Position numbers and translations under genes: made by a program. Below the pieces are notes generated by a model. The model ran no database searches. It was not told where the DNA came from and saw only the letters and a program-made list of their open reading frames with translations. DNA of 64,000 nt, taken from the NCBI RefSeq assembly GCF_030824435.1, contig NZ_JAVBXS010000020.1, positions 1 to 64,000 of the forward strand, written 5' to 3'. Positions within the stretch are counted from its first letter, which is position 1; each line of letters opens with the position of its first letter. The DNA comes from Rheinheimera sp. GTDB lineage: Bacteria; Pseudomonadota; Gammaproteobacteria; Enterobacterales; Alteromonadaceae. Below are positions 23,222 through 25,549 of the stretch, one piece after another.

Positions 23222-23500
23222 GGGTGTTATGCCGGGTTTCGCCCCGGCAGGCGAGTCCCTTTCTTTGCTGACAAAGAAAGGGACGCAAAGAAATCACCCC
23301 GAGATCGTTCGAAAGCCCGCTGTTTTGACTCGCTTTTGAGGCACCGCCAAAACTCGCGGAGTGCTAACGTCACCCCGCTCAGACAGTTGGCGGCTTAAAA
23401 CCTCAAAACCGGCCAAAACAACGGCTCACTAAACGGGGGAGAAAAGCGCTGGCTTGGTGAGTTGTTTTTTTTGGTTTGTGCCAAAAGCCGGCTAATGCCG
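23222..23500. repeat. Structured dispersed repeat element
   Basis: Successive hairpins can be read. TGCCGGG/CCCGGCA lies at 23230-23249. GTCCCTTTCTTTG/CAAAGAAAGGGAC (perfect 13-base arms, CTGA loop) lies at 23255-23284. A larger fold pairs GAGG and CCGCCAA with TTGGCGG and CCTC across about 23338-23403 and contains the small hairpin ACTC-GCG-GAGT. One frame reads FAPAGESLSLLTKKG, a pattern I recall from many spurious proteins in gammaproteobacteria. That suggests a widespread non-coding repeat. The right edge is uncertain. Confidence 0.55.
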
Positions 23501-23766
23501 AACGGTTGTGCTTTAAATCTCCTGCATAAGGCTTCAAAAACAACAGATGAAACTTCCAGTAAGCAATCATGCGTTAAATTTCGGACAAATAGCACACACG
23601 AAACCCAAATTTTGTCAGGAATTTTTTTAACCAATCGGAAAAAACGTTTGCAAAATAGGTATTTGAGTCTTACGGTGGGATAAATAAAAATCAGGATAGA
23701 AGGCATAAAAATTTCCCACTTGCGGGTGTTTTTCCTTCTATTAAGTTGTCAGCTAAATAAGGGGAT

Positions 23767-24534
23767 ATGACTTATACCATGGAGAGAGGGCAAGCACTTC
23801 ATCTACTAAGAGGGGCTCTAGCCGAGATATCGGATAGTCGAGGTTTCGCTAGAACTAACGACTTCTCTGGACTTCGCGAGGTGGATGCAAAGGTTCGAGA
23901 GGCACGCATGGTTCTGGAAGGTATCGACGGATTGCCTGAGTCGTTGCTCGAGTCGATGTCTAACGACCTAAACTTCCAAGCAAACAGTCGACGTGTCCGG
24001 CTAGAAGCGTTGGCTGGCTATATCAAAAGCGCCATAAAATTCACTGACACGGGTGCTTTCGAAAAACCTAAAAAGGTTATCCATTCACCCCCTGATTTCT
24101 CAGCACTGACTTCGTCAATGCCTGGGCTCACTGAAGAAATAAATCGACGCTGGCGCGAAGCTCAGAAGTGCGTTCACGTTGAGGCGTTTACGTCTGCTGT
24201 AATTTTGATGGGCAGTATACTTGAAGGCTTATTGCTCGCTCGAGCTCAGCTCTCTGCTTCTGTTGCTTACCAATCTCGCCGCGCTCCAAAAGACAAGAAT
24301 GGTAAAGCCGTTGCAATCCCGGATTGGACGCTCAACTCGCTTATTGATGTTGCGACTGACGCGGGTTGGATCAAAACGGATAGGGGCAAGTTTGGTCATG
24401 CGCTGCGAGAGTCCCGAAACATCGTCCATCCATGGCAAGCAGTGTCGATTCGCGCAGACTTTGATGGAGCAACTTGCCGCACATCATGGCAAGTGCTAGA
24501 TGCATCTGTGTCTGACTTGTTGAGGTCATTGTGA
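23767..24534 (+). CDS. Orphan island protein with conserved RNxxHP-type C-terminus
   Basis: A 255-residue soluble protein with no signal or membrane segment. The C-terminal half (about 120-235) has a helical core with AFTSAVILMGSILEGLLLA and then ALRESRNIVHPW. This arrangement recalls HEPN/DUF4145-like and abortive-infection C-terminal domains, where an arginine and a histidine near such a motif can form an RNase site; the spacing here is not canonical. Codon choice (CTA, CGA, AGA) differs from neighbouring core genes, suggesting transfer. It is followed by an attC-like hairpin, so it may be an integron cassette or defence-type gene. Function is unknown. Confidence 0.6.
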   Translation: MTYTMERGQALHLLRGALAEISDSRGFARTNDFSGLREVDAKVREARMVLEGIDGLPESLLESMSNDLNFQANSRRVRLEALAGYIKSAIKFTDTGAFEKPKKVIHSPPDFSALTSSMPGLTEEINRRWREAQKCVHVEAFTSAVILMGSILEGLLLARAQLSASVAYQSRRAPKDKNGKAVAIPDWTLNSLIDVATDAGWIKTDRGKFGHALRESRNIVHPWQAVSIRADFDGATCRTSWQVLDASVSDLLRSL

Positions 24535-24538
24535 GTAG

Positions 24539-24613
24539 AGCCAACAAGCCGTAGCAGTTCGCACCTTTCGCCGCGAGACTCGCTACGCTTGCCGTTATAC
24601 AGGAGCGTTATGT
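24539..24613. repeat. attC-like bulged hairpin
   Basis: Starting five bases after the stop of the orphan gene, AACAAGC-C-GTAGC-AGT-TCGC pairs with GCGA-G-ACT-C-GCTAC-GCTTG-CC-GTT. The long stem has single unpaired bases mainly on one side, the hallmark of integron attC sites. A GTTATGT core-like heptamer follows at 24607-24613, with GTTATAC at 24594-24600. The left core (AGCCAAC) fits the consensus poorly, so the call is tentative. Its place between two unrelated orphan genes is as expected for an attC. Confidence 0.4.
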
Positions 24614-24655
24614 GCTACCCAATTTATGAGCGCAATTTGGAGATAATTATAAAGA

Positions 24656-25312
24656 ATGGATATTAATGATTTTAGAGAGAAATTAGATGCTGATGAAGGG
24701 CTTATTTCTAAACCTAGAATACTAGTTAGTCTGTCTGTGATATTTATCGCTTTAAACATCTCAGGAGCATCGTTGCAAGAAGCTAATACATTAATATTTA
24801 AAATAAAATTTACACGGCACAAGAACCTTATTTATCTATTTTTTATATCAATATCTTTCATGCTTCTTAGATATTATGCCTACGCGAAATCCTATCACGA
24901 TTTGCTATTTTCATTTTGGTCAAAAAGAATGATTAGTGACTACAAAATATTTCAATATACACCTAAAGAAGAAGCTATTTCAGGACTACTTAGCAAGCGT
25001 ATTGATGTTTGGCCTGGTGATGAACCTGGCATACAAGATCTTAAATATGAGGTGGCAAGAATCTTTAAAAGGAATCTGGTTTATCAATGCTCTGGGCATG
25101 ATGAAATTCATGGTGATTATTATTATGATTCTAACATCGAACTTAATAAGTACAGTGAAACATGGCAACGTAAAGACTTTCTTATTTTATTAAAATTTGA
25201 AGCGCGCTACCAATTAGAAGCCATTTTAAAGTACAGAGAGTCTTTGGACATTCTGTTTCCCTATGTATTAGGGTTTGTCGCATTGTTTAGCTTCTTTATT
25301 AGGGACATTTAG
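24656..25312 (+). CDS. AT-rich orphan membrane protein, cassette-like
   Basis: A 218-residue protein of no recognised family. It has hydrophobic segments near 24-42, 57-75 and 198-214, and a charged central part (about 95-190) containing RIDVWPGDEPGIQDLKYEVA. The gene is plainly AT-rich, with many AAA, ATT and TTA codons, unlike the core genes on either side. It is bounded by GTTATGTGC (24607-24615) upstream and its exact reverse complement GCACATAAC (25320-25328) directly downstream, the pattern produced by an integron cassette. The start is uncertain by context but ATG at 24656 is the first good one. Confidence 0.6.
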   Translation: MDINDFREKLDADEGLISKPRILVSLSVIFIALNISGASLQEANTLIFKIKFTRHKNLIYLFFISISFMLLRYYAYAKSYHDLLFSFWSKRMISDYKIFQYTPKEEAISGLLSKRIDVWPGDEPGIQDLKYEVARIFKRNLVYQCSGHDEIHGDYYYDSNIELNKYSETWQRKDFLILLKFEARYQLEAILKYRESLDILFPYVLGFVALFSFFIRDI

Positions 25313-25319
25313 GGGCCAA

Positions 25320-25358
25320 GCACATAACACACGGTTCAAGCGGTAATGCTTCAAAACA
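25320..25358. repeat. Left half of a possible attC (truncated)
   Basis: GCACATAAC is followed by ACACGGTTCAAGCGG, which has the look of an attC left half (core ending in AAC, then a TTCAAGC box). It begins 8 bases after the membrane-protein stop. No matching right half with a GTT core is visible downstream, so the site would be broken. A weak hairpin AAGC-GGTAAT-GCTT lies inside. Confidence 0.35.
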
Positions 25359-25549
25359 AACATTCCCAACTAACCCCCAAACCAACACCGGGAGCTGCGG
25401 AGTGAGCATTCAAGAGTGAGCGCGGGAGGCGCGAACGGGCGAACGTAGTAGTTGCCGGTGGTGGTTCGCGCCCTGCCGGTTTAACCTTAGCTGTGCCAGT
25501 AAACTTCAACTGCCAACTTCAGCAGGCAGAACTGCAGAACGAGAGAATT

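Follow-up and report, generated by a model that had tools for sequence, protein, structure and literature searches.

The window, i.e., the whole 64,000-nucleotide stretch of Rheinheimera sp. DNA that was analysed, carries on its forward strand an attI site, a first cassette, an attC site (attC1), a second cassette and half of a second attC site (attC2), in that order. Cassette 1 (23749..24607) is bounded by the attI junction and the core of attC1, and cassette 2 (24608..25350), the right end of which is eroded, starts G|TTATGTGC, exactly complementary to its own R''. The complementarity is not exact for cassette 1, the attI junction GTCAGC and the R'' AGCCAAC forming no exact complement. The left neighbour of these features is the interspersed repeat REPA (23230..23475), which has 16 matches in the genome of the window (hereafter G000) including itself, and a second repeat, REPB (25351..25480), lies in the right flank, with 24 further G000 matches to parts of 25351-25450. 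No divergent intI adjoins the array; upstream lie REPA and then PadR and HAAS genes, and no integrase remnant was found by tblastn in up to 1.5 kb upstream of the attI site, where only matches of E 0.7 or worse were obtained. Elsewhere in G000, one match above the integron-integrase cut-off was observed (G000:C14:3-908, 465 bits); this gene is cut by the contig edge near its start and lies on a contig different from that of the window.

Gene 1, in cassette 1 (23767..24534), encodes an uncharacterised protein of 255 aa, and its ATG lies 19 nt past the attI junction. The C-terminal part of the protein weakly resembles DUF4145 (E 0.055, under the Pfam cut-off), and its RESRNIVH stretch may resemble the HEPN motif. 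A homologue in the relative G019 (34% identity over 128 aa), whose N-terminus matches Stk2 (PADLOC, 1.2e-11), is located inside a two-cassette array with attI and two attC matches; partial homologues were also observed in 10 plasmid records, and none were found on viral contigs. Gene 2, in cassette 2 (24656..25312), encodes 218 aa with hydrophobic stretches recognised by eye and is assigned to no family, as no Pfam or NCBIfam match was found for its product and PADLOC gave only PD-T4-9_C at E 0.025. It is AT-rich, as first described, with a GC content of 0.323 against 0.484 for the window. Homologues at 42% exist in G002 and G004, with no cassette context around them by eye, and no relatives of protein 2 were found on plasmids.

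Recombination sites of the window

The attI site (23680..23751) was recognised by R1, a sequence-only model built from 10 intI-linked attI sites with the window absent from training, at 52.1 bits (E 2.4e-13 genome-wide), and its junction follows G 23748. The core triplet is GTC, not GTT. The region before gene 1 is similar to the DNA that separates intI from the first cassette in two relatives, G009 and G017 (78% over 74 nt; E about 1.6e-13 against 13 short sequences), and alignment with other upstream regions identifies 23648..23676 (TTGCAA, 17 nt, TACGGT) as a likely remnant of the cassette promoter Pc, the counterpart in relatives reading TTGAAA, 17 nt, TAGTTT; its promoter role is putative. 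A second class of attI was seen by eye in G000 at L231 (contig C55) and L252 (C44), with cassettes and attC sites. These sites end GTTGATTAA(G/A)TTG|TTA at C55 and C44 and are not detected by R1, which gave no match at E up to 5 in 14 other G000 stretches, some of them with second-class sites.

The attC sites carry the motifs RYYYAAC and GTTRRRY. A hand-made scan for these motifs combined with folding returned 21 plus-strand and 26 minus-strand matches in the window, too many of them due to chance, and a covariance model, R2, was therefore built from 14 attC sites picked by eye from integrase-adjacent arrays of relatives and then aligned, with the R''/R' and L''/L' pairs assigned by hand and the window absent from training. 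When both strands of the 64 kb were searched with R2 at E up to 10, a single match was obtained, which is attC1 (24538-24615, full length, 23.8 bits, E 0.0016), with R'' AGCCAAC at 24539-24545 and R' GTTATGT at 24607-24613, so that the core lies at 24607 as the preliminary description had predicted. Genome-wide, its E is 0.094 under a rough calibration, the weakest among 12 R2 matches in G000. The hairpin with bulges claimed for this stretch is likewise reproduced, 24537-24602 folding at -20.1 kcal/mol for the top and -29.5 for the bottom strand with RNA energy parameters. attC1 holds two R'-like cores 13 nt apart (GTTATAC at 24594-24600 and GTTATGT from 24607), an arrangement that would possibly fit the scar of a deleted cassette.

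Both inverted 9-mers from which the locus was originally picked out are where they were reported: GTTATGTGC occupies 24607-24615, and GCACATAAC, which is exactly its reverse complement, occupies 25320-25328 and starts 7 nt past the stop codon of gene 2. When the two intergenic stretches were subjected to 5000 first-order shuffles, 100 of these (2%) produced an inverted match of 9 nt, and the pair by itself is thus only suggestive. The half attC2 (25320..25350) consists of R'' and an apparent L'', its 3' half is missing and it gives no R2 match, in agreement with the earlier remark that the second site seemed to have lost its right half; from 25351 onwards the right flank is common to two relatives. 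Taken together, the matches to the attI and attC models bear out the initial reading of an integron-cassette-like unit with its integrase outside the view. The proposed broken array with two proteins is also supported, while the attI at its head, the fact that gene 1 is a cassette too, the integrase elsewhere in the genome and the genus-wide set of loci had been overlooked.

Dispersed attI sites across the genus

The comparison set comprised 22 genus genomes (Rheinheimera in the wide sense), G000 included. The gene gspN is present in all 22, and in 19 of the 21 others it adjoins the HAD gene with no insert. The remaining genomes, G017 and G019, have an insert at the place of the window, where homology to the window ends at ~23470 and resumes at 25351, and between the same flanks they carry a gene different from those of the window. 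This gene is accompanied by a remnant of an attI, which scores 17.3 and 14.2 bits, and is followed by an attC-like site that scores 20.0 bits (E 0.018) in one relative and 14.7 bits (E 0.39) in the other. One place is thus occupied by different genes. The preliminary description would have abandoned its reading had there been no attC match and had both genes been fixed at this place in relatives without attC-like flanks; what was found is an attC match and, in the relatives, a different gene with an attC-like site. Empty sites were sought in close relatives, and those sites that were examined carried other content, leaving target duplication unreadable; one such counterpart site, in G000, has a second-class attI by eye, other cassettes and an attC of 43.2 bits.

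At an E limit of 0.01, R1 detected 99 attI matches, 96 of which also pass a limit of 0.001, in 20 of the 22 genus genomes, ranging from 0 to 9 per genome. Only 13 of the 99 lie beside an integrase and 86 do not, an attI being called unlinked if its contig has no integrase above the cut-off in the surrounding 1 kb or so; for L174, only 172 nt from a contig end, linkage cannot be excluded. An integrase above the cut-off was present in 18 of the 22 genomes, and attI matches were also observed in genomes lacking one, namely G008 (1), G016 (5), G020 (1) and G021 (9, in a single contig), so that loading in trans cannot be assumed there now. As a control, 59 family genomes were searched with stricter filters and an E limit of 0.001; of the 57 that belong to other genera, one matched R1 (2.3e-6). 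A pattern search of a collection of 84,980 species returned 24 stretches from Rheinheimera, Arsukibacterium or a gammaproteobacterial MAG. One unlinked site, L148 (G013:C1:1040133), is preceded by a 24-aa remnant of an integrase N-terminus, 96% identical.

For closer study, 40 of the 86 unlinked sites were retrieved, the majority of them ranked in the upper half by score, with weaker ones left out and some better-scoring ones passed over for their short flank (G014:C6, G011:C35, G001:C19, G016:C5, G004:C145, G011:C64:1672 and G001:C25). R2, run with an E limit of 0.01 on 43 loci of together 229 kb (39 of the retrieved sites, L133 being left out, with L083, L022 and both relatives at the place of the window), gave 65 attC matches distributed over 31 loci, all of them on the strand of the attI and downstream of it. 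Within single-contig genomes, an R1 attI is present no more than about 4 kb away for 9 of 16 attC matches in G021 and for 2 of 14 in G015, in which 4 more are close to the integrase; those attC matches that are remote from R1 sites may belong to other attI classes or to none. A small contig of G000 (L253, C87, 4316 bases) carries five attC matches and is perhaps a piece of the integrase's own array that was split in assembly.

A first gene was assigned to 41 of 42 cores, and in 38 of the 41 cases the distance from the junction to its start is 12 to 47 nt; among the first genes are one transposase-like and one phage-integrase-like gene (L143 and L165). When 43 cassette proteins were scanned jointly, matches from single members, which the joint scan leaves unnamed, covered 34 Pfam families including Cap15, and the PADLOC scan of the same proteins, likewise naming no members, covered 26 families including 2TM effectors, PD-Lambda-3_A, PDC-S33 and Stk2. 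Some first cassettes of the dispersed sites encode defence-like proteins (Cap15 / 2TM effector, PD-Lambda-3_A, PDC-S33, Stk2-like).

Many of these units have upstream sequence in common to about -205, and their similarity to the integrase-linked G009 region ends near -134 in the longest cases. A motif picked by eye, TGCCAAAAGCGGACATT, was observed in the interval from -300 to -120 of 14 out of 43 units when up to 4 mismatches were allowed, 12 of them at -198 to -201, against a background of 25 in 3000 random windows; the window itself has a left-end counterpart at 23479..23495 with 5 mismatches, at -201 from the start of the attI model. Downstream, AATGTCCGCTTTTCGCTC was found in 4 of the 43 units, the L162 copy being located where an attC match ends. 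The two motifs have an inverted core in common and may represent the ends of a mobile unit. By eye, similar ends also seem to be present at two loci of G000 without recognised attI, C79 and C94, and at both of them REPA forms inverted pairs about 1.3-1.5 kb apart that surround single genes. REPA, which occurs just upstream of attI (about -500 to -205) in five of six class-A sites examined (G000, G017, G019), was considered as part of a mobile attI unit, a proposal weakened by its 16 matches in G000 and by its also flanking genes without recognised attI.

Cassette turnover and competing explanations

Cassette ends were examined at 42 sites, i.e., 41 unlinked sites and the window, with L162 left out for want of a definable core. 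The 9 nt after the junction recur downstream as an exact reverse complement at 18 of the 42 (mean 0.8 and maximum 3 in 200 permutations), and at 28 when one mismatch is allowed (permuted mean 13, maximum 22); the window and 23 other sites lack the exact recurrence. Differences between species were assessed in ten orthologous groups, where 34 pairs were compared and two with short flank matches only (L153/L176 and L159/L176) were left out. The first 450 nt past the junction are unrelated (blastn, E up to 1e-4) in 31 of the remaining 32 pairs, which are not independent, 21 of them coming from one group of seven species, in which L133 has only about 230 nt past the junction. The sole matching pair is G017/G019 at the place of the window. 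The left flanks of the same places show matches of 82-97% that extend for up to 1.27 kb (92% over 953 bp for L150/L152). Of the 32 pairs, 28 also match in the 200 nt that precede the junction; L083/L231 and L022/L234 have no match there, and the window has just 19 nt in common with G017 or G019. Right flanks match again further downstream in six groups. The change point falls at G|TT in most sites; in G001, G012 and one G021 site, the difference extends into the final 20 nt of attI. Cassettes in common to different sites were also observed: one occurs in the integrase array of G009 and in G009:C24 (99.4% over 325 bp, GTT at both ends), one in G002:C57 and at a different site of G021 (99.3% over 418 bp, GTT at both ends) and one in the G013 array and G013:C1 (92% over 496 bp, GTT at the left end, the right one not clean).

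We consider it highly probable that the two cassettes of the window belong to an integron platform, now eroded and devoid of an integrase of its own, which is a member of a family spread through the genus and for which an integrase acting in trans is the best explanation. A platform would comprise a Pc-like region, an attI and at least one cassette away from the integrase, some platforms lying at one place in several species. The integron integrase encoded elsewhere would insert and exchange the cassettes of such platforms in trans, and each platform would contribute its own promoter to them; from the sequence comparisons, this is the best reading of cassette insertion and exchange. In the window, damage seems to have affected the core triplet of attI, the promoter -10 box and attC2, whereas both genes have stayed open, so that exchange has probably stopped and the two genes seem locked in place. 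Our confidence was slightly lowered by the documented exchange of arrays through homologous recombination and by attC clusters without recognised attI. A wider model, which we regard as quite possible and put forward tentatively, is a distributed integron in which one integrase would serve many promoter-bearing attI slots that spread as a unit with inverted ends (TGCCAAAAGCGGACATT on the left, AATGTCCGCTTTTCGCTC on the right), possibly via an unknown enzyme.

Each dispersed platform might alternatively be a former complete integron that has lost intI, with cassette differences that predate the loss and no action in trans needed, which appears rather unlikely. It would account for the upstream similarity to integrase-linked regions extending to about -134, for the integrase start of 24 aa retained at L148 and for the four genus genomes without intI above the cut-off. 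Nevertheless, the other 41 unlinked sites resemble the window in giving only tblastn matches of E 0.7 or worse within at most 1.5 kb upstream (172 nt at L174 and 892 nt at L145), and many platforms have the left segment to about -205, which is absent from the compared integrase-linked sites and points to one dispersed lineage. The 99.4% identical cassette in an array and a remote platform of one genome, moreover, suggests recent movement.

Real platforms whose arrays are exchanged by homologous recombination through attI and its flanks, and not by integrase, are an unlikely explanation, although about 280 bp around attI are common to the platforms and the cassette arrays of the SGI1 integron are exchanged in this way according to PMC7056807. 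The shared cassettes bounded by GTT have different neighbours on both sides in two of three cases, as integrase action predicts. Improbable is an origin through off-target insertion at chance genomic sites (attG type) leading to ordinary CALINs, a route known for these elements (PMC8618304), with which the attC matches away from R1 sites (7 of 16 in G021 and, near-integrase ones excluded, 8 of 14 in G015) would agree: the window, at 52.1 bits, and the studied sites were found via a 77-nt attI match with similar upstream sequence, and some attC clusters without an R1 match have the second attI class by eye (G000:C55, C44). That two ordinary accessory genes inserted between repeats just happen to be accompanied by a hairpin and an inverted 9-mer can hardly be credited, since the 2% shuffle rate, the low attC score and the occurrence of REPA and REPB around genes without recognised attI are outweighed by an independent attI match at the expected place and a different gene there in two relatives.

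Comparison with known integron systems

Integrons typically have one attI near the integrase, and the cassettes nearest to it are the most likely to be expressed, as stated in PMC9024848; if the preferred reading of platforms served in trans is true, many attI sites with their own promoter regions would allow numerous first cassettes to be expressed simultaneously in one cell. According to the same text, attI is poorly described outside class 1 integrons and hence undetected by IntegronFinder, so that attI-headed CALINs may be overlooked elsewhere. Among listed titles and abstract openings, mainly of non-subscription literature, no description of dispersed attI sites was found. Dispersed attI would, if real, account for integrase-less arrays at fixed places, and attI-headed platforms make the origin of CALINs testable.

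In terms of a complete integron, the window has a recognised attI, with its core triplet altered, and no adjacent intI. The sedentary chromosomal integron, with intI, attI and a cassette array on the chromosome, exists in Rheinheimera too, but it typically has one attI near the integrase (PMC9024848), whereas most attI matches here are not integrase-adjacent. In CALINs, as outlined in that source, attC cassettes likewise occur without a neighbouring integrase, and none is nearby in the window; the IntegronFinder 2.0 default given there is at least two attC sites (PMC9024848), and the window has one scorable attC match and a half site. The present array also differs from CALINs in being headed by attI and a promoter-like upstream region. 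The SGI1 complex class 1 integron has a second attI with its own cassette away from the first, as here, but there the two attI lie within one 15-kb element (PMC7056807), compared with up to 9 attI matches per genome in this genus. Cassettes of the delta-attI type in class 1 and 2 integrons also have attI sequence off its usual place; there, a partial attI replaces attC 3' of a gene within an array (PMC12901181), whereas here attI heads separate arrays. The conserved-position CALINs of Xanthomonas are integrase-less arrays at several fixed loci of one genus, as in the present case; the available text of PMC12444791 describes attC clusters at seven loci and does not mention attI there, whereas the arrays described here are headed by attI and their first cassette varies between species.
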